Part shown: positions 2,055 through 37,261 of the stretch, in pieces
How the letters are laid out: every line of letters starts with the position of its first letter
Position numbering within the stretch: the first letter of the stretch is position 1
Source: Kineosporia corallincola
Lineage (GTDB): Bacteria > Actinomycetota > Actinomycetes > Actinomycetales > Kineosporiaceae
DNA: 64,000 bases
Assembly: GCF_018499875.1 (NCBI RefSeq)
Contig: NZ_JAHBAY010000004.1
Coordinates: forward strand, 124,001 to 188,000
Reading direction: 5' to 3'
The notes under the pieces: generated by a model
What the model was told of the DNA's origin: nothing
What the model saw: only the letters and a program-made list of their open reading frames with translations
Database searches by the model: none
Made by a program: the position numbers and the translations under genes

Positions 2055-3542
2055 TCAGGACTCGTCAGCCGCCGCAGCGGTTTTCGCCTCACCGGTGCGG
2101 TGCACGACCAGCCCGGCCCCGGCCGCCAGCAGCGCCGCGACGGCGCAGATGGTGAACAGCACCCGGTAGCCGGTCAGTGAGGGCACCTCGATGCCCGGGC
2201 CGAGCGACATCGTGATCGCCGCCAGCAGGCTGCCGCCCAGGGCGCTGGCCAGCGTGCTGCCGAGCGAGCGGGCCAGGGTGTTGATGCCGTTGGCCGCCGC
2301 CAGGTCGTGGGCCGGGGTGTGGTGGTTGATCAGGCTGGGCAGGGCCGCGTAGCCGATGCCGCTGCCCAGGCCGATCACCGTGCTGCCGACCACGATCTGC
2401 CACAGGTCGGCCACCAGGGTGATCCGGACCAGCAGGCCGAGCGCGATGATCGTGCCGCCGAGGGCGAGCACCCGGCCCGCCCCCCACGAGCCGATCAGCC
2501 GGGCGGTCACCGGAGAGAGCAGCAGCATCAGCACACCGCCGGGCATCAGGCACAGCCCCGCGGTGAGCACGGACGAGTCGAAGCCGTAGCCGGTGGCTTC
2601 GGGGGCCTGCACGTAGTTCGCCGTCCCCACGAAGGTGGCGAAGAGCGCGAACCCGATGAAGATCGAGGCCACGTTGGTGATGGCCACCGGGGGGTTCGCC
2701 ATGGCCCGCACGTTCACCAGCGGATTCGTGGTGCGCAGCTCGGTCAGGGTGAGCAGGAACAACAGGACGACGGAGAGCACGAGAAGACCCAGCGTGCGCA
2801 GCGAGGTCCAGCCCCAGTCGGTGCCCTGCGAGAGCGGCAGGATCAGGCTGACCAGGCCACCGGCCAGCAGCAGGGCGCCGAGCACGTCGACGCTGCCCTC
2901 CCGGCTGGGCTTCGGCTCGGGCACCAGCAGCCGCACCAGCACGACGCTGATCAGGGCGCCGATCGCGCCGATCCAGAACAGCACGCGGTAGCTGAAGTTG
3001 TCGGCGATCAGCCCGGCCAGCGGCAGCCCGAGGGCACTGCCGATGCCGAGCATGGCCGAGATCAGGGCCACCGCCGAGCCCTTGCGGGAGGCCGGAAGAG
3101 TGGCGGCGAGCAGGCTGATCCCGAGCGGGATCGAGGCGCTGGCCAGGCCGGACAGCGCCCGCCCGGCGATCATCACCTCGACGTTCGAGGTCAGGGCCGC
3201 CATCAGCGAACCGACCGTCAGGGCGGCCAGGCTGATCATCAGCAGCAGGCGCCGTCCGTACATGTCGGCCAGACGGCTGAGGATCGGCACGGCGACGGCA
3301 CCGGTGAGCAGGGTGGCCGTGAGCATCCACTGCGTCGCGGTGGCGGAAGCCCGCATGTCGGTGGCGATCTCGGGCAGCACCGGGATCACCAGGGTCTGGC
3401 TGAGGGCCGCCATCAGGGCGCCGAGACCGGTGGCGACGATCTCGACGGTGGAGCGGAACCCGCCGGCCTGTTCCGGGTCCAGGCGGGGGTCGAGGTCGGT
3501 GTCACCGGGGTGGGTGCCGACCTCGTCGGAGGCGTGAGCCAT
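2055..3542 (-). CDS. MFS drug exporter, EmrB/QacA (DHA2) type
   Basis: This 495-aa integral membrane transporter has about 14 predicted hydrophobic helices. The MFS loop after the second helix reads RLADMYGRR and the GxxxGxxxG-type exporter motif region reads GIGSALGLPLAG, pointing to the DHA2 proton antiporters for drugs or metabolites. The start at 3542 is supported by AAAGGGA 8 nt upstream; the frame extends further but without a ribosome site. It is divergent from a TetR regulator, with two operator-like palindromes in the 93-bp gap. That is the classic arrangement for repressor-controlled efflux. The substrate is unknown. Confidence 0.92.
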   Translation of the reverse strand: MAHASDEVGTHPGDTDLDPRLDPEQAGGFRSTVEIVATGLGALMAALSQTLVIPVLPEIATDMRASATATQWMLTATLLTGAVAVPILSRLADMYGRRLLLMISLAALTVGSLMAALTSNVEVMIAGRALSGLASASIPLGISLLAATLPASRKGSAVALISAMLGIGSALGLPLAGLIADNFSYRVLFWIGAIGALISVVLVRLLVPEPKPSREGSVDVLGALLLAGGLVSLILPLSQGTDWGWTSLRTLGLLVLSVVLLFLLTLTELRTTNPLVNVRAMANPPVAITNVASIFIGFALFATFVGTANYVQAPEATGYGFDSSVLTAGLCLMPGGVLMLLLSPVTARLIGSWGAGRVLALGGTIIALGLLVRITLVADLWQIVVGSTVIGLGSGIGYAALPSLINHHTPAHDLAAANGINTLARSLGSTLASALGGSLLAAITMSLGPGIEVPSLTGYRVLFTICAVAALLAAGAGLVVHRTGEAKTAAAADES

Positions 3543-3556
3543 CGGGTCTCCCTTTG

Positions 3557-3617
3557 CAAACGCATGTTTACTTGAAAGGTAGGGCCGTCGTCGGCCGGTA
3601 GTCAAACGATCGTTTAC
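3557..3617. promoter_or_regulatory. two operator-like sites between exporter and TetR genes
   Basis: CAAACGCATGTTTAC (3557-3571) and CAAACGATCGTTTAC (3603-3617) share the frame CAAACG-N-GTTTAC. The second contains the perfect 12-bp palindrome AAACGATCGTTT. Their placement in the divergent gap suggests TetR binding sites that control both genes; this is inference from symmetry, repetition and context. Confidence 0.65.
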
Positions 3618-3635
3618 ATGCGTGATACTTGACGG

Positions 3636-4295
3636 ATGACGGCGACATCAGGGCAGCACCGGCCACGGGTGCGGGATGCCGGGGCCACCCGTGCCGACCT
3701 GCTCAGGGCGGCCCGCCGCCGGTTCTCCGCCCTCGGCTACGAACGCACCACCAGCCGCGACATCGCCCGTGACGCGGGCGTCAACGTGTCGCTGATCTAC
3801 CGGTATTTCGGTTCCAAGGAACAGCTTTTCGAGGTCGTGCTGGAAGAGACGGCGGACCTGTTCCAGCGCCTGGAGACCCAGACGCTGGAGCAGCTGGTCG
3901 AGCAGTTCGTCGACGGGCTCACCGGTGGCGGCACGCCTGACCCGCACTACGGCGGCAAGCATCCGTTGCTGGTGATGCTGCGGGAGACGAGTGACGACAG
4001 CCGCACCTCGAAGCTGCGGCACCAGACCCTGGGCGCGGTGATCTCGCACTTCGCCGAGGTGATCGCGCGGCGGCACCACACCGACCCGACCCCGCAGCAG
4101 ATGGCCGCGGCCCGGCTGCGGGCCGGGCTGCTGTTCTCCACCTTCGCCGGCGTGGTCACGTTGCGCGCCGCCATTCCGGGTGACGAGTTCTCCTGCGCCG
4201 GCCCCGACGACCTGCGCGCCGAGCTGACCAGGATCGCCACCGAGGTCGTCGCCGGCCCCTTGACTCCCGCGCCGGAGCTGCCGAAGAGAACCTGA
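3636..4295 (+). CDS. TetR family transcriptional regulator
   Basis: This 219-aa repressor has a standard N-terminal TetR helix-turn-helix: helix pair around residues 38-57 (TTSRDIARDAGVNVSLIYRY) followed by FGSKEQLF. The C-terminal two-thirds is the variable ligand-binding and dimerisation domain. It is divergent from the MFS exporter and most likely represses it and itself through the palindromes at 3557-3617. The start ATG has only a weak ribosome site. Confidence 0.92.
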   Translation: MTATSGQHRPRVRDAGATRADLLRAARRRFSALGYERTTSRDIARDAGVNVSLIYRYFGSKEQLFEVVLEETADLFQRLETQTLEQLVEQFVDGLTGGGTPDPHYGGKHPLLVMLRETSDDSRTSKLRHQTLGAVISHFAEVIARRHHTDPTPQQMAAARLRAGLLFSTFAGVVTLRAAIPGDEFSCAGPDDLRAELTRIATEVVAGPLTPAPELPKRT

Positions 4296-26885: not shown

Positions 26886-27251
26886 TCATTCGAAGCGAAT
26901 GCCGCCGTGGATGTCGCGGGCCTGCACCGCATGACCGCCCACGTTCCCGTGCACGGTGTTCGTCGTCGTTCGCCCGGTGTCGTCGTGGTCCGGGCGGTGC
27001 GTGTTCCAGGCCGATTCCAGCCAGGTGCGGAAATCGGCGTCGCTTGAGACGCTTTCATGCAGTAGTGCGATGAGCGCTGCACGTGCTCGTGTATCCATGG
27101 GGCGGTGAAGAACGTCGTCGAGGGCCTGCTGCGCCGGATGCCTCCGGCGCAGGTGATCTCGCAGGCCGGAGGTGAATTCGGCGAACGCGGCGGGGCGGTC
27201 GGCCGCGGCTGTCAGTTCGGCCACCACCTGGCTGATCAGGTCGTTGGTCAT
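26886..27251 (-). CDS. small effector-like protein with C-terminal amyloid-type motif
   Basis: This 121-aa protein has a predicted all-helical N-terminal domain (residues 1-85). A short Thr/Asn-rich linker then leads to a C-terminal motif VQARDIHGGIRF (residues 109-120). The nearby NB-ARC ATPase at 28342 carries VQARDVSGGIHF near its N-terminus. This arrangement, a helical cell-death-type domain ending in a short motif that matches an adjacent NLR, fits bacterial amyloid-signalling (BASS/RHIM-like) effector pairs. The helical domain would correspond to the Bell or effector-associated type. No enzymatic residues are visible. ATG with GGGAGGA 6 nt upstream. Divergent from the ATPase operon. Confidence 0.75.
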   Translation of the reverse strand: MTNDLISQVVAELTAAADRPAAFAEFTSGLRDHLRRRHPAQQALDDVLHRPMDTRARAALIALLHESVSSDADFRTWLESAWNTHRPDHDDTGRTTTNTVHGNVGGHAVQARDIHGGIRFE

Positions 27252-27376
27252 CGGGTCCTCCCGGCGCCTGGGGGTGGACGGATTCGTTGTCCTGGGTGAT
27301 CCTCGCTGGTAGCGACATTTTACTCAGTGTGTAATTTCTGCCATGCGTTCGGCCACAATCAAAAACGGGGGTTACT
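27252..27376. promoter_or_regulatory. divergent promoter region of the NLR locus
   Basis: The 125-bp gap between the effector-like gene and the ATPase operon is relatively AT-rich. It contains an imperfect inverted repeat TTACTCA/TGTGTAA (27321-27335, one mismatch) as a possible operator. It must drive both arms of the locus. Confidence 0.5.
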
Positions 27377-27658
27377 GTGACGGGGAGTAATCCGGGGAAA
27401 TGGAGCGCGGACAGCTCTGCCAATTTTCTGCGGCGGCTGGGCAAGTCGTCGCACGAGCTGGGACAGACGGCGGGCAATGTGAGCTGTCCCGACATCTGGG
27501 AACTCGACAACGGTGACATCGCGGTGATCGGCACCGAGCTCAGCCACAGTTACACCGGCAGGCTGCCGGACGGGGTGTCGATCGACCCGGGCGAGAGCCT
27601 GGTCGTCATTCCGCGCCGCACCATCGTGGCAGCCAAGACCGACATCCCGGACCAGTGA
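27377..27658 (+). CDS. small conserved protein upstream of DUF6879
   Basis: This 93-aa protein contains the stretch DIWELDNGDIAVIGTELS and the later VVIPRRTIVAAKTDIPD. From memory, it resembles a small family encoded directly before DUF6879 proteins in streptomycetes; function unknown. GTG start with a G-run upstream. The stop overlaps the next start as TGATG, so the two are coupled. Confidence 0.7.
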   Translation: MTGSNPGKWSADSSANFLRRLGKSSHELGQTAGNVSCPDIWELDNGDIAVIGTELSHSYTGRLPDGVSIDPGESLVVIPRRTIVAAKTDIPDQ

Positions 27659-28329
27659 TGGGGCCGGCCGTGCCGATCGACCTGCGTGGTGGCGAGATCC
27701 AGCAGCTCGCCGACTATTACGCCGATTTCGAGCAGAGGATGGCGGGCTGCCAGGAGTTCTGGAAACTGGAGCGCGGGCAGACCTTCGCCGAACCGGCGGA
27801 CGAGAGCTGGCTGGCGTTCGAGGCCGGCGACTGGGATACCGCCGCGCGGCTGATCGAGCGCCGCCGGGCCGATCTCGAGGCCTACCACCGCGAGCTGCGG
27901 CAGGCCGGCACCCGCACCGCCCGGGTCCGGGTGGTGGAACGGCCGCTGTCGGCCTACCTGCAATGGGAGCTGCGGTTGCTCCGGATCCGCGACGAGGCGG
28001 GCGGGCCGATCCGGGTGCTCGACGCGGGTGCGGTGGCCGGGCTGGAGACGGGCGGGCCGCTGCCGGAGATCTACACGATGGACGAAACCGTGATGTACGA
28101 GGCTGTTTACGATGATTCGGGAGTGCTCGACCATGCCGTGCGCTACCGGGACGCCGATGTCGTGAGGGCGGGCCGGGAGCTGATCGGCGACCTGTACCGC
28201 CGGGCCGAGCCGATCGCCGCCTTCTTCGGGCGGGAGATCGATCCGGCGCAGCCGGTGCTCCCGGACCGCCCGGCCCTGCCGGCGGACTATCTGCGTTCGA
28301 GGGGCCGTCCTGCACCCATCCGGTCGTGA
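27658..28329 (+). CDS. DUF6879 family protein
   Basis: This 223-aa protein has the DUF6879 pattern: a Phe/Trp/Leu-rich N-terminal half (FWKLERGQTF, DESWLAFEAGDW), the RVVERPLSAYLQWEL segment, and a YTMDETVMYEAVYD strand region. Function unknown. ATG at 27658 (a GTG 3 nt upstream is an alternative). It is coupled to the small gene before it and lies 12 bp before the NB-ARC ATPase, so it belongs to the same transcript. Confidence 0.75.
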   Translation: MGPAVPIDLRGGEIQQLADYYADFEQRMAGCQEFWKLERGQTFAEPADESWLAFEAGDWDTAARLIERRRADLEAYHRELRQAGTRTARVRVVERPLSAYLQWELRLLRIRDEAGGPIRVLDAGAVAGLETGGPLPEIYTMDETVMYEAVYDDSGVLDHAVRYRDADVVRAGRELIGDLYRRAEPIAAFFGREIDPAQPVLPDRPALPADYLRSRGRPAPIRS

Positions 28330-28341
28330 GCGGGTGCCGGG

Positions 28342-30798
28342 ATGAGCGCCACCGGGCCGCACGACGACGCGGATCAGGAGAACCAGGTCGAGGCAGGCCG
28401 TCTCGACGATCTGGTGCAGGCCCGCGACGTTTCCGGGGGCATACACTTCTACGGGAGACCGGCCCGGCGGGCCGACGGAAGCACCGTCCCCCGCCAGCTT
28501 CCCGGCGACGTCGGCGTGTTCGTCAACCGGCTCGGTGAGCTGGCCTCGCTGGGCGAGCTCGCCGCCGCGCACGCCGCGCATGCCGCACACACCGCACACA
28601 CCGCATCGGGCACCGGCGCCTCCACGGTCATCGTCGTCACCGGATCGGCCGGCGTCGGAAAGACCGCTCTGGCCCTGCACTTCGGGCACCGGGTGGAGGA
28701 GCTCTTCCCGGACGGGCAGATCTACTACGACCTGCGCGGCTACGGTGAGAGCAGACCGCTGGAGGTCGCGGACCTGCTCGACCGGGTGCTGCGCGACCTC
28801 GGTCTGCCCGCCGACCGGATCCCCGCCGACCTGCAAGAACGCTCAGCCTTACTGCGCAGCCTGCTGGCCCGCCGCCGGGTTCTGGTGGTGCTCGACAACG
28901 CTGCCTCGGCAGCCCAGGTGAGGCCGCTGATACCGGGCACGGTCGGTTCGCTGCTGCTGGTCACGAGCCGTAGCGCCCTGCCTGCCCTGGCGGTGCGTGA
29001 CGGTGCGCGCCGGGTGCATGTCGACGTCCTCTCCGACCGGGACGCGGTCGATCTGCTGACCCGGGTCACCACCGCCGGCCACCGGCGTGACGACGAGCGG
29101 TCGCTGGCCGAACTCGCCCGGCTGTGCGCGAATCTGCCGCTGGCCCTGCGGATCGCGGCCGAACGGGCCAGCGCACGGCCGACCATGGAGCTCGGCGAGC
29201 TGATCGGCGACCTGCGGGACTCCACCTCGCTGTGGGACGCCCTGAGCATCGGTGACGAGGGTGAGGAGGAGGCGGTGCGGGCGGTGTTCGCCTGGTCCTA
29301 CCGGGCGCTCACGCCACAGGCGGCCGGCCTGTTCCGGGCCCTCGGGGTGTATCCCGGAACCGACATCGCCCTGATGCCGGCCGCGGTGCTGCTCGGCGAA
29401 ACGGTCACCCGGACCCGGCGGGCTCTCGACCTGCTGCTCGGTGCCTGCCTGCTGAGTTCACCGCACCCGGGCCGCTTCCGGTGCCACGACCTGCTGCGGG
29501 CCTACGCCGTGGACCAGGCGCGCGAGGCGGAGAGTGAGGCCGAGCGGACCCGGATGCTGGAGCGGCTGGTGCGGTGGTTCACCCTCACCGTCGACCAGGC
29601 GGCCCTGGTCCTCGCCCCCGGCGACCGCTTTCCGCTGACGCCCGGCACGCCCGGAACGGTGGAGCCGCTGTCGTTCGCCTCCCCGGTCACCGCGCTGGAA
29701 TGGTTCGAGACCGAGCGTGACAACCTGATCGCCTGCTGCACCGCGGCTTTCGCCGCCGGACTGGCCCTGACCGCCTGGGAGCTGGCGATGACGGCCGGGG
29801 CCCTGCACGCGAGCCACTTCATGTTCGCGGACTGGGAGGTGATGAGCCGGACCGCGGTGGCCGCGGCGGAGACGCTGCGCGAACCCGGCAGGCTGGGGCA
29901 GGCACTCGACAACCGGGGCAAGTACCTGTTCCGCACCCGGCAGCTGGAACCGGCCCGGGCGGTGCACGAACGGGCCCTGGCGGTGCGCGAGGCCACCGGC
30001 GACCGGCCCGGGCAGGGCGAGTCGCTCAATGCCCTGGGCCTGATCGGGTTGCGCACCCGCGATCTCGACGCCGCCCGGCAGAGTTTCGCCCGGGCGGCCA
30101 CGATGTTCGCGGCGGCCGGCGACGAGAGGTGGGTGGGCATCATGACGTCGAACGCGGCGGAGTCCGAGCTGGAGGCGATGGATCCGGACGCCCCCGATCG
30201 GGCCGGGGCGGCCGCGCTCGTCGCCGGGCTGAGCGATCTGCCCGGAACCTTCGCCCGGCTGGGCGACCCGGGCCTGCGGGGCAACGCCCTGTGGCTGCTG
30301 GCCTGGGCCCAGCGCCTGGCGGGTGATCTGCCGGCCGCGAGGGCGTCCGTCGACGAGGCCCTGGGCATCGCCGAGGACGTCGGCAGCAGGGCCTGGGAGG
30401 GGTTCTGGCTGCTGGAGTCGGGACGCGTGCACCTCGCGGCGGGGGAGCTGCCGCAGGCCCTCCAGTGCTGCGCCGCCTCGGCGTCCCTGCAACGGCAGCT
30501 GGCCGACCGCAGCCGGGAGGCGATGGCCGTCGCCCTGAACGGGGAGGTGCTGGCCGCCGCCGGCGGCGGGGATCCGGCCGAGGCCCTGGCCTTCCTGCGG
30601 CAGGCCGCGCGCATGCACCGTGACCTGGGCGACGACTGGAACGAGGCACTCGCGCTGGTGCGGGCGGCCGAGGTGGCGCCCGCACCGGACGCCGCTGAGG
30701 AAGAGGCGTCCCGGGCTCTGCGGCTCGCCGGGCCCTTCGCCGACGCCCGGGCCCAGGCCCTGCGCCGGCGGGCCCGGGCACTGGCGGACCCGGCGTGA
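28342..30798 (+). CDS. NB-ARC/TPR STAND ATPase (bacterial NLR)
   Basis: This 818-aa STAND protein carries the motif VQARDVSGGIHF at residues 25-36 and an Ala/His-rich linker at about 75-90. An NB-ARC domain follows: Walker A GSAGVGKT at 101-108, Walker B VLVVLD at 180-185, a LLVTSR sensor and a LPLALRIAAE motif. The C-terminal half is helical TPR-like repeats that would sense a ligand. Such proteins oligomerise on activation. The N-terminal motif matches the C-terminus of the divergent small protein at 26886, suggesting that the ATPase nucleates it. There is no SARP/BTAD domain, so it is not an AfsR-type activator. The trigger is unknown. Confidence 0.88.
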   Translation: MSATGPHDDADQENQVEAGRLDDLVQARDVSGGIHFYGRPARRADGSTVPRQLPGDVGVFVNRLGELASLGELAAAHAAHAAHTAHTASGTGASTVIVVTGSAGVGKTALALHFGHRVEELFPDGQIYYDLRGYGESRPLEVADLLDRVLRDLGLPADRIPADLQERSALLRSLLARRRVLVVLDNAASAAQVRPLIPGTVGSLLLVTSRSALPALAVRDGARRVHVDVLSDRDAVDLLTRVTTAGHRRDDERSLAELARLCANLPLALRIAAERASARPTMELGELIGDLRDSTSLWDALSIGDEGEEEAVRAVFAWSYRALTPQAAGLFRALGVYPGTDIALMPAAVLLGETVTRTRRALDLLLGACLLSSPHPGRFRCHDLLRAYAVDQAREAESEAERTRMLERLVRWFTLTVDQAALVLAPGDRFPLTPGTPGTVEPLSFASPVTALEWFETERDNLIACCTAAFAAGLALTAWELAMTAGALHASHFMFADWEVMSRTAVAAAETLREPGRLGQALDNRGKYLFRTRQLEPARAVHERALAVREATGDRPGQGESLNALGLIGLRTRDLDAARQSFARAATMFAAAGDERWVGIMTSNAAESELEAMDPDAPDRAGAAALVAGLSDLPGTFARLGDPGLRGNALWLLAWAQRLAGDLPAARASVDEALGIAEDVGSRAWEGFWLLESGRVHLAAGELPQALQCCAASASLQRQLADRSREAMAVALNGEVLAAAGGGDPAEALAFLRQAARMHRDLGDDWNEALALVRAAEVAPAPDAAEEEASRALRLAGPFADARAQALRRRARALADPA

Positions 30799-31659
30799 TC
30801 AGTCGTCCGGCCCGGGCGGGTCCTCGGTGTCGACCAGCCACAGCGGACCGTCGGCGCACTCCACCCGCAGCCCGGGGGCGGGCTGCGTGCTGGAGGCGTT
30901 CACCCGCACCGGGCGCCCGGCCACCTGCGCCACCGGCCCACGTCCGCCGCCGAGGAAGGCAGCGGCCCGGATCCGGTGGTGCACCTCCTCGCGCGGCGCG
31001 TCCCAGGTGATCGAGAACCAGTCCGGGGTGGGGAAACCGGCGTAGGAGGCCAGGGACTCGTCCTGCTCGTCACCCGGGTCGCCGGCGGCGAGCCGTTGCA
31101 GGGCGATCGGGAGCAGCCGGGCCAGGACCGGTCGGGTCGCCTCCCAGACGTCGTCGGGAACCACCCGGTCGGGCACCTCGATGCCGCGGGAGGCGGCCAG
31201 CACCGGCCCGCCGTCCGGCCGCTCGTCGACCCGGTGCAGGGTGAGCCCCAGCGAGGTCTCACCGGACCGGATGGCCCAGGGCACCGGGGAGGGACCGCGC
31301 CACTGCGGCAGCAGGGCGGTGTGGATGTTGACCGTGCCCAGTCGAGGCAGGTCGAAGACGGCCCGGGGCAGGCGCCAGTTGAAACCGAACACCAGGAACA
31401 GGTCAGGCCGGTAACCGCTCAGAAGAGGCTGCAACGAATCGGCATTCGCCGGGAACAGCAGGTCTGTCCCGCCCGGCACCGACGCGGCGAGATCGGTCAC
31501 GGCCGGTCGCATCTGCGGGTCGGGCGGCGAATTCGGCCGCATGGAGCGGCTCATCGTGAACGCGACCACCTCGTGCCCGAGGCCGGCGAGCAGGTCGGAG
31601 AGGAACCGGAACTGCGGCACGCCGTACGACGCCAGGACGACGCGGAGTCCGGAGGTCAT
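30799..31659 (-). CDS. formyltransferase family protein
   Basis: This 286-aa protein has the formyl/glycinamide transferase core: NIHTALLPQWRG (catalytic Asn and His), WAIRSGETSLG and the conserved Asp in VDERPDGGP. The family includes methionyl-tRNA formyltransferases and sugar or amino-acid formyltransferases that use N10-formyltetrahydrofolate. The C-terminal region is short and does not clearly match the tRNA-binding domain, so the acceptor is uncertain. Its stop abuts the ATPase stop (convergent). Confidence 0.82.
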   Translation of the reverse strand: MTSGLRVVLASYGVPQFRFLSDLLAGLGHEVVAFTMSRSMRPNSPPDPQMRPAVTDLAASVPGGTDLLFPANADSLQPLLSGYRPDLFLVFGFNWRLPRAVFDLPRLGTVNIHTALLPQWRGPSPVPWAIRSGETSLGLTLHRVDERPDGGPVLAASRGIEVPDRVVPDDVWEATRPVLARLLPIALQRLAAGDPGDEQDESLASYAGFPTPDWFSITWDAPREEVHHRIRAAAFLGGGRGPVAQVAGRPVRVNASSTQPAPGLRVECADGPLWLVDTEDPPGPDD

Positions 31660-31853: not shown

Positions 31854-32822
31854 TCACCGGGCGTACCACCGGGCCAGCCGGTCGAAGCCCTCCTCCAGCC
31901 CGACCGCGGGCGTCCAGTCCAGCACGGCCCGGGTGGTGCGCTGCTCGAACCAGTGCGCGGTGGCCAGCTGCTCGGCCAGGAACCGGGTGATCGGCGGGTC
32001 GTCGTGCCGCTTGCCCAGCGCCCATGCCCCCTCCACCGCGGCCCCGGCCAGCCAGGCCACCGGGAACGGCACCCGGCGGGCCGGCGGCTGCACCCCGGCC
32101 GCGTCACACAACCGGGCGAACAGGTCGGCCACCGGCCGGGGTTCGCCGTTGGTGACCACCAGCGCCCGGCCCCGCGCGCTCTCGGCGTGGTCGAGCGCGG
32201 CCACCGTGGCGTCCACGGCGTTGTCCACGTAGGTGGTGTCGATCAGCGCGGCCCCGGAACCGATCAGCGGCAGCCGGCCCTGCCGGGCCCGCTCCACGAT
32301 GCGCCCCACCAGCTGGGTGTCGCCCGGCCCCCAGACCAGGTGCGGGCGCACGGCCACGACGGCCAGCCCGGGCCCGTCGGCGGCCAGGGCGATGCGCTCG
32401 CCGGTGGCCTTGCTGCGGGCGTAGTTGCCGCGGGCCCGGCGCGGGTCCGCAGGCCCGGCCCCGGCCCCGGTCAGGGCGTGACCGTGATGGGCCACGGACG
32501 GCGACGACACCTGCACCAGCCGGGGCGTGCCGGCCTGCTTGAGGGCACCGACCAGGTTGCGCACGCCCTCGATGTTGGCGGCGGCGTACTCCGGCCAGGG
32601 ACCGGTCACGTTCACCTTGGCGGCCAGGTGCACCACGGCATCCATGCCCTCGACGGCCCGGCCGATCGCGGCCTGGTCGGTGATGTCACCGGTGATCTCG
32701 CGAACCCCGGTCAGGGACGACGGACGGCGCTGGAAGACCGTCACGTCGTCGCCGCGTGCGGCCAGTTTCAGGGCCACCCCGCCGCCGAGCATGCCGCTGG
32801 CGCCGGTGACGAGAACCTTCAT
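31854..32822 (-). CDS. oleD: OleD-like NAD(P)-dependent beta-hydroxy acid / ketone reductase
   Basis: This 322-aa extended SDR has the GASGMLGGGVA dinucleotide loop, VVHLAAKVNV, and a YARSK active-site Tyr-Lys pair. Within the ole pathway, OleD reduces the beta-keto acid from OleA to a beta-hydroxy acid. Identification rests on the family and on its position directly after oleA and oleBC. The ATG overlaps the oleBC stop as ATGA. It is the last gene of the operon. Confidence 0.88.
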   Translation of the reverse strand: MKVLVTGASGMLGGGVALKLAARGDDVTVFQRRPSSLTGVREITGDITDQAAIGRAVEGMDAVVHLAAKVNVTGPWPEYAAANIEGVRNLVGALKQAGTPRLVQVSSPSVAHHGHALTGAGAGPADPRRARGNYARSKATGERIALAADGPGLAVVAVRPHLVWGPGDTQLVGRIVERARQGRLPLIGSGAALIDTTYVDNAVDATVAALDHAESARGRALVVTNGEPRPVADLFARLCDAAGVQPPARRVPFPVAWLAGAAVEGAWALGKRHDDPPITRFLAEQLATAHWFEQRTTRAVLDWTPAVGLEEGFDRLARWYAR

Positions 32823-35425
32823 CGCGAGCCGGCCAGCTTTCCCGCCGCCCAGGCGGCCACGTGGGTGCGGTCGATCTTGGAGTTGTGCCGGATGTCGGTC
32901 TTCAGGGCATCGGTGACCAGCACCGCGGCCAGCTCGACCGCGGCCGCCGAGCGCACCCGGGCAGCCAGGTTGAGAGGCGCCACACCGCCGGGGGCGTCGG
33001 CCTCCAGCACCGCGACCAGGTGCTGCGAACCGGCCGGGCCGACCCCGACCAGTGCGGCCCGGTGCACCCCGGGTACCGCCTGGATGCGCTGCTCCACCCC
33101 GTACGGCGTGACGAAACCGCCCGCCGGGCTGAGCACGTGCACCAGCCGGCCCTCGACCCAGAGGCGGCCCTCGGCGTCGAAGTGGCCCACGTCGCCGGTG
33201 CGGTGCCAGCCGTCCGGCGTGGAGGTGACCTTCTGGGTGAGCCAGAGCTGGTCGTAGCGTTCCTTGAGATGCCGCGCCCGCACCAGGATCTCGCCGGTGA
33301 CGCCGTGCTTGGTTGTGGTGTCGCCGGAGTCCGCGGCGCCGTGCGCGTCGAGCGGGCTGATCACGATCTCGACGCCGGGCAGCGGCCTGCCGACCAGCAC
33401 GCCGTTGCCGGGGCCGACGGCCTCCAGCCCGGGCAGGTCGACGTCGGTGAGCAGCAGCGCCTCGGTCATGCCGTAGGGCGTGTGAAGCCCGGCGGAGGGC
33501 AGCAGCTCCTGCACCTGGCCGAGCAGCTCGGCGGGCACCGGGGCGCCGGCCGACAGCAGCAGCCGCACGTCACGCAGGCCCGCCCGGTCGCCGTCGGCCA
33601 TCCGGCCGGCGGTGGCCAGGACGTTCGCCAGTGCGGCCGGTGAGGCGAACACCACCGTGGCGTCGATCGCCCGCACCGCCTGGGCCAGGGCCTTCGCCGA
33701 CAGGGTGCGCGGCGCGGTGACGTCCATGTCCGGCACCGCCGAGGTGATCCCCAGGCCCGGGCCGAACAGGGCGAACGGCGCGAAGGCGGCGACGAAGCGG
33801 TCGTCGTCCACCGGGTCGTCGTTGCCCGTGCGCAGCCCGTAGGCCGACAGCAGCGCGTCGCGGATCGCCTCGACCTGGCGGTACGTGTACACGACCCCCT
33901 TGGCGGGGCCGGTCGAGCCGGAGGTGAAGAGCACCAGCGCCTCGGCCTCCGGCGGCGGGCCGGGCGGCAGCTGCGTGGGGGTGGTGCGACGCAGGTCGTC
34001 GAGGGTGGTGGTGACCCCGAGCACCCGGGAGAGCCGGGAGTCCGCCTTCACCCCGACGCCGATCCGGCGGCCCGGCCAGCGCAGGGCGCGGGCGGCCAGC
34101 AGACCGCGGTCGACGGCGATCACGTGCTTCACCGCCGCGCCGCGCACGGCCCGGTGCAGTCCGGGCAGGCCCAGTCCGGCGTCGGCGATCACGGCGACGG
34201 CCCCGATGCGCAGGCAGGCGTAGAGCGCGACGGTCAGGTCGGCACCCGGCGGCACCAGCAGCGCCACCCGGTCACCGGCCCGCACACCCTGATCCAGCAG
34301 GCCCGCGGCCACCCGGTTCACGTCGGAGGAGAGCTGCCGCCAGCTGGTCGCCCGCCAGCTCCCGAGCTGGTCGTTGCCGGCGCCGCTCGGTTCCAGCAGC
34401 ACGGGTCGCGGGTCGTCCGCCCGCTCGTCCAGCGGCGCCCACAGCTCGCGCCGGGGTGTGGTCACCCCGGTGGGTCGGCGCGGGGTCACAACAGTGGACG
34501 ACGGGGAGCTGATCGCGGGTGTCACGTCGTCCGTCAGCCACCGCACCACCGCCTCGGCGACCGGCGCGTCCTCGGCGACCAGGTGACCGGCCTTCTCGAA
34601 CCGGTGCACCTGGGCCTGCGGAAGACGCGAGCGCAGGTCACGCAGGTAGAGGTCGGTGAACACCGGGTCGCGCGGGCCCCACAGCATCAGCGCGGGCAGC
34701 TCGGCCAGGCGCGGCAGGCCCTGCACGATGTCTTCGAGGGCGTCCCAGCTCGGGTGCGTGGGGTCGACCGGGATGTCTTCGACGAACTCGTCGATGCCGG
34801 TGCGCCGGTCGGCTCCGCGGTAGGGGTCCAGGTAGCCCGCCCGCACCCGCGACGGCAGCCACGGGTGGGCGATGCCCAGCGTGGCCTGGAGGAAGATCGG
34901 GGTGGTCGCGGTGACCAGGCGGCGTACGCCGGGCAGCCGGGCCGCGGCGATCAGGAACGGCAGGGCCGAGCCGGGCGGCTGGTGCACGGCGGTGTTCAGC
35001 ACCGCGACGCCGGCCAGCCGGTCGGTGTGGCGTACCGCCCAGCCCAGCGAGATCGCGCCGCCCCAGTCGTGCCCGAGCGTGACGATCGGGCCCTGGAGGT
35101 CGAGGGCGTCGGTGAGCCGGTCCAGGTCGTCGAGGCGGGTGCCGAGCCGGCGCCGCACGCCGGTGCGGTCGGACAGGCCCATGTTGAGCTGGTCCATGGC
35201 GACCACCCGCCAGGGCTGCCCGGACTCGGTGGCCGCGGCGATCACGTGCCGCCACAGGTACGACGAGGTCGGGTTGCCGTGCACGCACAGCAGCGTGCCG
35301 ACGGGCGTGCGGCCGTCCAGGGCGTCCTGGTTGTCGAGCACGTGCCAGGTGTGGCCGTCGGGCGTGGTGACCTTGCGGACCCAGCGCGGGTCGACGCCGT
35401 GCGGCGTGCCGGTCGGCGTGCTCAC
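32819..35425 (-). CDS. oleBC: fused OleB-OleC (hydrolase plus AMP-ligase-like) protein
   Basis: This 868-aa protein is a natural fusion. Residues 1-330 are an alpha/beta hydrolase of the haloalkane-dehalogenase type, with nucleophile Asp120 in LGHDWGG, matching OleB. A Ser/Thr/Pro linker follows (SSPSSTVVTPRR, about 330-355). The remainder is an acyl-AMP ligase-like domain with the P-loop LFTSGSTGPAKG near residue 500, matching OleC. In the pathway, OleC converts the beta-hydroxy acid to a beta-lactone and OleB removes CO2 to give the olefin. The GTG at 35425 overlaps the oleA stop. An OleBC fusion is known from Micrococcus and other actinobacteria. Confidence 0.9.
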   Translation of the reverse strand: MSTPTGTPHGVDPRWVRKVTTPDGHTWHVLDNQDALDGRTPVGTLLCVHGNPTSSYLWRHVIAAATESGQPWRVVAMDQLNMGLSDRTGVRRRLGTRLDDLDRLTDALDLQGPIVTLGHDWGGAISLGWAVRHTDRLAGVAVLNTAVHQPPGSALPFLIAAARLPGVRRLVTATTPIFLQATLGIAHPWLPSRVRAGYLDPYRGADRRTGIDEFVEDIPVDPTHPSWDALEDIVQGLPRLAELPALMLWGPRDPVFTDLYLRDLRSRLPQAQVHRFEKAGHLVAEDAPVAEAVVRWLTDDVTPAISSPSSTVVTPRRPTGVTTPRRELWAPLDERADDPRPVLLEPSGAGNDQLGSWRATSWRQLSSDVNRVAAGLLDQGVRAGDRVALLVPPGADLTVALYACLRIGAVAVIADAGLGLPGLHRAVRGAAVKHVIAVDRGLLAARALRWPGRRIGVGVKADSRLSRVLGVTTTLDDLRRTTPTQLPPGPPPEAEALVLFTSGSTGPAKGVVYTYRQVEAIRDALLSAYGLRTGNDDPVDDDRFVAAFAPFALFGPGLGITSAVPDMDVTAPRTLSAKALAQAVRAIDATVVFASPAALANVLATAGRMADGDRAGLRDVRLLLSAGAPVPAELLGQVQELLPSAGLHTPYGMTEALLLTDVDLPGLEAVGPGNGVLVGRPLPGVEIVISPLDAHGAADSGDTTTKHGVTGEILVRARHLKERYDQLWLTQKVTSTPDGWHRTGDVGHFDAEGRLWVEGRLVHVLSPAGGFVTPYGVEQRIQAVPGVHRAALVGVGPAGSQHLVAVLEADAPGGVAPLNLAARVRSAAAVELAAVLVTDALKTDIRHNSKIDRTHVAAWAAGKLAGSR

Positions 35426-36435
35426 CAGATCACCGGGAGCACGCCGGCCGTGAACCCGGCCGCGCCGCAGACCAGCAGGATCTTGTCGCCCTTGGTCAGC
35501 AGTCCCTGCTCGGAGGCCAGCGACAGCGACAGCGGGATGCTGGCGGCGGCGTTGTTGCCGAACCGGTCCAGCGTCACCGACACCTGGTCGCGCGGGTAGT
35601 CGATGGCCGCGCAGAGCGCCTCGGTGACGCCCTTGGACACCTGGTGCGGGAAGATCCGCTTCACCTCGTCGAGGTTCCAGCCCAGCTCCGCGATCGTCTT
35701 CTCGATCAGCGGCGGGATGTGCTCGACGGCCAGGCTCTGGAGGGCCGAGCTGTCGCACTCGAAGAAGTAGCGCGAGTTGTCGTGCGGCATCAGGTTGCCG
35801 CCGGCCAGCACGGTGGACAGCTCCCACTGGGAGCCGTCGGAGACGAAGCGGCCGGGCAGCAGCCCGGTGTTCTCCTCGTCGGAGGCCTCCAGCAGCACCG
35901 CGGCACCGGCGTCGCCCAGGGTCAGCGCGGCCAGCTTCTTGCGCAGGTCGGCCGAGCTGTCGATCTGCCAGTTGACGGTGGGGGAGAGCACCTCGCCGGC
36001 GACGACCAGCACGCGCCGGGCGCGCCCGGTGGCGATCGAGGCGGCGGCGAAGTCCAGGCCGTTGAGGAAGCTGTTGCAGGCGTTCTTGATGTCGGCGAAC
36101 GTGGCGTTCCGCGCGCCCATCTTGTGCTGCACGATGGCCGAGGTGGCGGGCTCGGACACGTCGTGCGACGCCGAGGAGTAGATCAGCAGGTCGACCGAGA
36201 GCGGGTCGACGTCGGCGTTGGCCAGTGCGGCCAGGCCGGCCTGCGAGGCGAGGTCGGACGAGGTGGTGCCGGGCACCGCGTGACGCCGCTCACGGACCCC
36301 GGTGAGTCGCTCCACCAGCCCGCTGGGCATGGCGAAGTTCTGACTGCGGGCCGTAACGGTATCTTCGACCTCGGCCGAGCTGATGACGCCGTCCGGTATC
36401 GCGTGACCGGTGCTCACGACCGCAGAGTTGATCAA
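35422..36435 (-). CDS. oleA: OleA-like thiolase (3-oxoacyl-ACP synthase III family)
   Basis: This 337-aa thiolase-fold protein has the catalytic triad Cys120 (IKNACNSF), His264 (FPHQVS) and Asn294 (FGNNAAAS). Its length and its position upstream of oleBC-oleD identify OleA, which joins two fatty acyl-CoAs head to head to a beta-keto acid. The start is TTG at 36435 with AAGGTGAG upstream; in-frame sequence before that is low complexity and outside the family. It opens a three-gene operon. Confidence 0.9.
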   Translation of the reverse strand: MINSAVVSTGHAIPDGVISSAEVEDTVTARSQNFAMPSGLVERLTGVRERRHAVPGTTSSDLASQAGLAALANADVDPLSVDLLIYSSASHDVSEPATSAIVQHKMGARNATFADIKNACNSFLNGLDFAAASIATGRARRVLVVAGEVLSPTVNWQIDSSADLRKKLAALTLGDAGAAVLLEASDEENTGLLPGRFVSDGSQWELSTVLAGGNLMPHDNSRYFFECDSSALQSLAVEHIPPLIEKTIAELGWNLDEVKRIFPHQVSKGVTEALCAAIDYPRDQVSVTLDRFGNNAAASIPLSLSLASEQGLLTKGDKILLVCGAAGFTAGVLPVIW

Positions 36436-37261
36436 AACTGGCTCACCTTGACGACTGTGGGGAATGAAGGTCCGGACCCGACGCCGTTGTCTCCGGGCCG
36501 AGGCCGTCTGCCATCCTGACACGGAATTGAGGTTCCGCTGCTCGTGGGGCTCCCGCGATGCAGGTTGGTTACCGACTTGAGTACCGCCATGTAGGCACGA
36601 CGAGCGAGCTCCGGCCGGTGTTCCAGGGGTGAATTGCACCTTTGGACACTTCTTCGGTGTCCGGGTGTGCGTGGCGCTCGCACACCGGGTCACCCGTTCG
36701 GAGTGTCACCACCGGTCACCCGGACGGGTTCGTGACCCGATCGAGATGTCCCGGCGTCCCGGTGCCCCGGCGCGGGGGCGCCTCGAATGGTGGACGACGA
36801 AAACCCGGCCGACAATGCGCCCGACGCCGGTGCGGCAGTTGCTGAGCGTTCATTCCCTGTCCCTCCGGGTGTCGGAGCGCCCGTCGTCGGCCGACACCTG
36901 TTGCTCGACGACGTGTTTCGCGCCACCCCGGTCCTCGGCTCTCGGCATCTGGCGAAAGTCGTTGGAGACCGGCAATAGTCGACGGAGCGTGATTGATCAT
37001 GTCGATAATTGTTGCTGGCGGGCAGATCTGGGAACCCGGCCTTGCATCCGGCGGGTGAATGGGTGAAGATGATCAGCGTATCGGCTTCCGATGGGCGCCG
37101 GGCTCCGGCCTGCCCCTGCCCGGGTTCTGACCGATGCCCCCATTTTTTCGGCAACAGGTCGCCGCTCCCACTCCCCGTGAAGGTCGTCCGGGCTTCCGTC
37201 GCCCAGCGTTCCCGCGAGTGAGACCTACCCAACCCCAACAGTTTTCGCGAAAGCAGCCGCC
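36436..37261. other. 826-bp intergenic region upstream of the ole operon
   Basis: No gene called. The longest frames are low complexity; the best candidate, 36787-36978 (63 aa, MVDDENPAD), has no ribosome site. Two hairpins are visible: one near 36661-36688 (CCGG-GTGTGCG arms) and a larger imperfect one at about 36686-36740 (CGGGTCAC with GTGACCCG). The region is less GC-rich near 36980-37070. It must hold the promoters of the divergent ole operon and the gene at 37262. Confidence 0.45.

Follow-up and report, generated by a model that had tools for sequence, protein, structure and literature searches.

An NLR locus of Kineosporia corallincola with a motif-sharing Bell-like small protein, a DUF6879 cassette and a linked formyltransferase-family gene

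The closest described systems are the two-gene amyloid signalosomes of bacteria, in which an NLR (NOD-like receptor) and a Bell effector carry bacterial amyloid signalling sequence (BASS) motifs (PMC7889193, PMC8086366). The motifs are paired, one at the N-terminus of the receptor and the other at the C-terminus of the effector (PMC7889193). The Bell effector is small and predicted to be helical, with a hydrophobic helix, a C-terminal motif and an NLR neighbour (PMC7889193, PMC9815663). BASS3 peptides aggregate experimentally (PMC8086366), and GFP-BASS3 foci have been observed (PMC9815663). The outcome of amyloid-type NLR signalling in filamentous bacteria was said to be unexplored (PMC7889193). 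Here we describe a locus of this general kind from Kineosporia corallincola, lying in a stretch of 64,000 nucleotides (contig NZ_JAHBAY010000004.1, positions 124,001 to 188,000), which is referred to below as the window. As in the actinobacterial NLR/Bell systems, an NLR gene stands beside a small candidate effector gene, and the same short motif is found at the N-terminus of the NLR and at the C-terminus of the small protein. The window module differs in a constant cassette of two genes (gene 1 and a DUF6879 gene) and a frequent formyltransferase gene linked to the NLR, and these are what is new relative to the known layout.

The features of the locus are as follows.
26886 to 27251, minus strand: Bell-like small effector candidate of 121 aa (open frame and profile family; N-terminal part presumably helical, C-terminal motif).
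26892 to 26960, minus strand: effector-side motif NTVHGNVGGHAVQARDIHGGIRF, residues 98-120, with the core VQARDIHGGIRF at 26892-26927.
27252 to 27376, no strand: divergent intergenic region of 125 bp.
27377 to 27658, plus strand: cassette gene 1, 93 aa, of no named family, with the core CPDxWxLxNGDxxVIG.
27655 to 28329, plus strand: cassette gene 2, DUF6879 (PF21806), 224 aa, Pfam E 1e-35, overlapping gene 1 by 4 nt.
28342 to 30798, plus strand: NLR of the STAND (signal transduction ATPases with numerous domains) type, 818 aa, with the motif, NB-ARC (residues 94-283) and TPR by Pfam.
28414 to 28449, plus strand: receptor-side motif, residues 25-36 of the NLR, kept in relatives.
30799 to 31659, minus strand: enzyme of the formyltransferase family (Formyl_trans_N, 286 aa), with the active-site N-H-D retained; its gene meets the NLR gene tail to tail at zero gap.

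The small protein and the NLR had been singled out in an original prediction, made from the sequence alone, and the two frames with their coordinates and lengths were as given there. The C-terminus of the small protein reads VQARDIHGGIRFE. The protein had been said to end in the motif; the motif is indeed at 26892-26927, with one extra residue, E, after it. Residues 25-36 of the NLR read VQARDVSGGIHF and are identical to the effector motif at 9 of 12 positions, as predicted. No ungapped 12-mer alignment of the two proteins gave a higher identity. When both were shuffled 400 times, none of the shuffles reached 9; 8 was reached in nine cases, and the rest gave 5-7.

A profile of the C-terminal motif, built from 23 small proteins (the window's own included), gave the NLR motif 29.6 bits, and the best of 180 scored shuffles 9.7. 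In the 8.2-Mb genome the motif core, written as a degenerate DNA pattern, had three matches, two of them at this locus. A degenerate pattern run over 394 sampled genomes of the class proved too loose, matching 114 of them, and was of use for spacing only. Among the eight NB-ARC homologues of the genome (E 1e-10), the strict motif was present in one, the window NLR; one of the eight (L292) was covered for 1140 of its 1569 residues. Another (L288) carried a variant of the motif with QAH. A second, unlinked Bell-like/NLR pair of the same genome (L105, at G000:C11:255412, and L288, at G000:C18:5861-7603) had the common core QAH, not QARD.

The frame at 26886 is very probably a gene, because it has a strong ribosome-binding site (GGGAGGA) 4 nt upstream of its ATG and relatives in many genomes; its translation had been one of the points in doubt. 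A promoter-like site on the minus strand (27344-27317, 9 of 12 positions, a consensus match only) lies in the divergent gap. The 121-aa protein had no useful match in Pfam, NCBIfam, PADLOC or PHROGs, and Pfam gave nothing useful for the 93-aa protein either. The one PHROGs match was weak, of unknown function, and to the ATPase.

The helical domain of the small protein had been thought unassignable. A two-sequence profile of the protein found relatives in 33 of the 394 genomes, and the family fits the published description of Bell; our term Bell-like follows that description, not a Bell HMM (hidden Markov model). Many members have in common an Ala/Gly-rich N-terminal stretch, a DPxF...W segment and, with variants, a tail of the form N-x-[VI]-x-G...VVQARDIxGGIxF. 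Conservation is highest in the motif; otherwise the small proteins are 23-41% identical. On the effector side N98, G102, G106, Q110-D113, G116 and I118 were invariant across 13 aligned members. Pfam searches with 13 Bell-like members returned seven families, each as one weak match in one member and none common to them. The small protein had no match among plasmids at E 1, and known structures searched with the DUF6879, Bell-like and gene-1 profiles gave none better than E 0.41.

For comparison, a genome collection was scanned with a profile of gene 1. It found 407 relatives, and the best 80 were fetched; the locus counts below refer to these, their gene calls rest on frames and profiles, and all statistics take the loci as independent. 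Retrieval by gene 1 partly builds in the constancy of that gene, but not the presence of DUF6879 and the NLR after it. Relatives of gene 1 occurred in 46 of the 394 class genomes. An NLR-profile match lay within 2.5 kb downstream of the cassette in 49 of the 80 loci, intact in one frame in 42. All 42 intact NLRs stand behind a DUF6879 gene, and all 42 carry [VI]Q[AT][RG]x[VI]xG[GD][VI] ahead of NB-ARC. The motif or a close form of it (two VQAG, one VQAE) was also on all 10 cassette-linked NLRs that came from other searches (the window, L016, L046, L151, L152, L154, L157, L159, L161 and L166).

To control for flank length, 10 short loci were set aside, leaving 48 NLR loci and 22 NLR-less loci. 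A Bell-like gene with a matching C-terminal motif was found in 12 of the 48 and in none of the 22 (Fisher p 0.013). Enrichment of the motif pair in homologous loci, the absence of which had been named beforehand as refuting, was therefore observed. The Bell-like gene is divergent in nine loci (L185, L186, L193, L197, L205, L206, L208, L211 and L212) and downstream in three (L216, L224 and L226); the divergent arrangement, which had been considered unusual, is thus that of most Bell-bearing loci. Two cases were left out of the Bell count by hand: L232 had a weak profile match without the motif, and in L202 the Bell-like gene, on the opposite strand 1 kb past the NLR, carried a different motif.

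Bell-like pairing also occurs in L016 and L081, outside the 12. L016, which belongs to a congeneric genome (G007), has the same four genes in identical order and orientation, with both motifs, and L081 has a remoter four-gene version with every gene in one direction. A tree built from 53 NLRs placed all ten divergent rows in one half and the four downstream rows in the other, the split being weakly supported (49/87). In the 12 loci the motif identity of true pairs was 9.5/13 and that of permuted pairs 8.9/13 (p 0.0035).

The motif was also found in other settings. In L281 a single frame runs from a partial Bell-like domain (its second half) through the motif into an NLR. On a Kitasatospora cathayae plasmid (L046:5251-8295, NZ_CP115452.1) DUF6879, motif and NLR are fused as one protein of 1014 aa. 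L152 has no recognised Bell-like gene; another protein there, with two strongly hydrophobic segments, bears the motif near its C-terminus. Twenty genomes were picked by hand (the window's own, G007, all seven sampled-class operon genomes without an adjacent Bell pair, and those of 11 named loci), and among 18 hand-picked genomes with the operon and no recognised adjacent Bell pair, 11 had a strong Bell match elsewhere (E < 1e-20). Together with the QAH pair, these three arrangements and the unlinked matches support a modular use of the motif.

Two further loci (L235 and L242) have the cassette beside another NB-ARC/TPR protein (by Pfam for L242) and a formyltransferase gene. The sequence GRVYQASGDQHIxEHHHH at the N-terminus of that protein may be a signalling motif of another kind. 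In L192 (10423-12210) the DUF6879 gene adjoins DUF397-like and helix-turn-helix (HTH) genes, which hints at a connection with this type of regulator. The idea, formed by eye, that gene 1 is itself a DUF397 relative was not supported (hhalign probability 0.3).

The cassette was followed either by an NLR (49 of the 80 loci) or by a DUF6082 protein (15 of the 80), never by both. The DUF6082 loci lie between L218 and L253 in our numbering (e.g. L221:6871-7614). A DUF6082 protein followed the cassette in 15 of the 28 loci without an NLR and in 0 of the 49 NLR loci; among those with enough flank it was present in 11 of the 22 NLR-less and 0 of the 48 NLR loci. An apparent DUF6879-DUF6082 fusion in L218 was discarded, as its frame runs through an ambiguous base. 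The N-terminus of the DUF6082 protein looks membrane-like by eye. The cassette with DUF6082 is a second flavour of the system. The original prediction had treated the two genes ahead of the NLR as extras to the minimal two-gene layout; they turned out to be a constant cassette.

The formyltransferase gene, on the other hand, had been overlooked. Its product matched Formyl_trans_N (Pfam E 1.2e-17), and N111, H113 and D149, the active-site N-H-D, were invariant in 24 aligned sequences of the family. The closest solved structures by sequence were methionyl-tRNA formyltransferases (Fmt), with 5uai best and 1fmt among the first. The protein did not pass the NCBIfam fmt equivalog cut-off (79.5 bits, cut-off 201.5; two relatives scored 127.1 and 114). 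Relatives were found in 32 of the 49 NLR loci vs 3 of the 31 NLR-less loci (p 6e-7), in 32 of 48 vs 3 of 22 when the short loci were set aside (p 7e-5), and in none of the 15 DUF6082 loci. Four arrangements relative to the NLR were seen. All five genes are present in 10 of the 12 Bell-bearing loci and in the window; in L186 the NLR frame is broken, and in L205 the formyltransferase frame is short. In L016 a GNAT-like acetyltransferase gene (2874-3827, by eye) follows the NLR at the place that the formyltransferase has in other loci.

At E 1e-30 this family gave five matches in 4 of the 394 genomes, and three of the five adjoin a motif-bearing NLR (the window, G028 and G383). The fourth is a second copy in the window's genome (L301, G000:C25:12495-13346), 59% identical, with neither NLR nor cassette; genes that by eye are methyltransferase-like lie near it. 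The fifth has an NRPS-like gene, again by eye, as its neighbour. A third copy in the genome, 26% identical, may be the housekeeping one. Beyond the formyltransferase gene of the window, and adjoining it, is an epimerase/3beta-HSD-family gene (within 31854-36693). By eye the same region also has hydrolase-ligase fusion and ketosynthase genes, with a resemblance to an OleABCD-like olefin pathway.

We interpret the locus as probably an NLR signalosome of the amyloid-signalling type known from bacteria, in an expanded form. The motifs of receptor and small protein are paired, the pairs are linked to NLR loci above NLR-less ones, and parts of the module are fused and swapped. In such a signalosome the TPR end of the NLR would sense a trigger, and NB-ARC, as is usual for its family, would bind nucleotide and oligomerise. 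Oligomerisation would cluster the N-terminal VQARD-x-x-GG-[IV]-x-F motifs, and these could template the matching C-terminal motif of the Bell-like protein, the partner suggested by comparative genomics. The clustered Bell-like domains might then arrest the cell, by membrane damage or in another way. The gene-1/DUF6879 cassette constantly accompanies this type of receptor; it lies ahead of the NLR and in one plasmid homologue is partly fused to it. Because the cassette stays the same while the third gene varies, it most likely acts upstream, in input or licensing, with either the NLR/Bell pair or DUF6082 as the output. The formyltransferase, given its linkage, may be an accessory of the NLR version that modifies some substrate.

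Several results weigh against this interpretation. A counted Bell-like neighbour was lacking in 36 of the 48 NLR loci, and the QARD core was present in just 5 of the 11 unlinked strong Bell matches; such loci and poorer-matching copies count against a fixed one-to-one pairing. Shared ancestry remains in the pair-identity and Fisher tests. Pair matching at the single freely varying position was not significant (p 0.26 in 12 loci, 0.085 in 15). The best 19-residue mean hydropathy of the window's Bell-like protein was 0.84, against a median of 1.1 and a range of 0.37-1.46 in 22 members, and that of the same-genus copy 0.57; membrane action of the window protein is uncertain, because its N-terminal hydrophobic stretch appears weak. 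A PADLOC scan matched no known anti-phage system, giving just weak TPR/ATPase matches at E 2e-4 or worse. Finally, the BASS3 (RHIM-like) peptide of PMC8086366 Table 2 scored 1.0 bit against the motif profile, and 66 of 176 scored shuffles did as well or better.

With this last result the label RHIM-like (for RIP homotypic interaction motif) of the original prediction was not borne out, and amyloid-signalling-like is the best analogy. The comparison covered one BASS3 peptide, and we do not claim the label BASS for the motif. The fungal HET-S/HELLP NLR/HeLo-type systems and mammalian RHIM necroptosis are alike in their receptor and effector copies of a motif and in the templating model (PMC7889193, PMC7885112). 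No sequence relation to them is claimed. The core of RHIM is I/V-Q-x-G, and at that place the window reads VQAR.

The failure to recognise the BASS3 peptide also bears on what the shared segment does. The two proteins may be partners in the same way, with the segment serving as a plain tag for oligomerisation or as a simple beta-strand, a homotypic adaptor without amyloid. Short, rich in Gly and alternating in hydrophobicity, both copies are compatible with either reading. The position and pairing of the motif, however, are as reported for BASS motifs (PMC7889193), of which BASS3 peptides aggregate (PMC8086366) and GFP-BASS3 forms foci (PMC9815663), and we regard a plain tag as a doubtful alternative that still deserves serious weight. 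We hold it unlikely that the NLR regulates development or secondary metabolism in the manner of AfsR, with the small protein and the formyltransferase as metabolic or regulatory partners. Its NB-ARC and TPR part is homologous to that of the AfsR-type SARP/NB-ARC/TPR regulators, and NCBIfam called it AfsR-like from residue 44 on (score 296, cut-off 1430). The epimerase/3beta-HSD-family gene beside the formyltransferase, and a formyltransferase relative in another genome (L303) beside a gene that by eye resembles a nonribosomal peptide synthetase (NRPS), would also suit a metabolic role. But the window NLR has no SARP/BTAD DNA-binding domain; the motif and a linker precede NB-ARC instead, and the 93 residues there leave no room for a SARP DNA-binding region. 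Moreover, the members of the module are kept together in seven named families and the window's own despite changes of gene order, and the cassette is also present on two plasmids.

The partial fusion in L281 would fit a history in which the NLR and the small protein split from a fused ancestor, the motif match being a relic in functionless similar linkers. A relic would decay, however, and here the motif is the most conserved part of divergent small proteins, is on every intact NLR and is borne by the apparently unrelated L152 protein as well; this explanation is very improbable. Coincidence we consider scarcely credible. The motif is short and the coding DNA GC-rich, and the loose pattern was widespread, as noted above. 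Against chance are the shuffle and profile scores, the genome-specific matches and the 42 NLRs; in the list of loose-pattern matches no other two from the same genome lay within 100 kb of each other. Chance is further disfavoured because the homologous pairs would need to be chance too.

Beyond the amyloid-type signalosome that we favour, a bolder proposal is that the locus represents an undescribed NLR class. The DUF6879 cassette would serve as a portable unit for sensing or licensing and would drive either a Bell-templating NLR or, directly, DUF6082. The formyltransferase would make or mark the molecule monitored by the NLR or attacked by the response, for instance an aminoacyl-tRNA or a small signal that carries a formyl group. 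We put this forward as speculation and think it rather improbable. Neither DUF6879 and DUF6082 nor six motif strings occurred in the publications searched. Among titles and opening lines of abstracts on Bell effectors, BASS3 or NLRs of bacteria, and on formyltransferases together with NLR or STAND proteins, there was no description of this gene set. The primary paper on the bacterial motifs is reportedly Dyrka et al. 2020, and its tables may hold part of the set.

Amyloid-type NLR signalling ties bacterial, fungal and animal cell death together. The module described here is sharply defined across several actinobacterial families, with a receptor, a candidate effector, two constant partners and a linked enzyme of known fold. 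The exchange of NLR and DUF6082 behind one cassette hints at which part senses and which executes. The formyltransferase offers a handle, as its substrate can be sought directly, and a testable context emerges for DUF6879 and DUF6082, neither of which has a known function.

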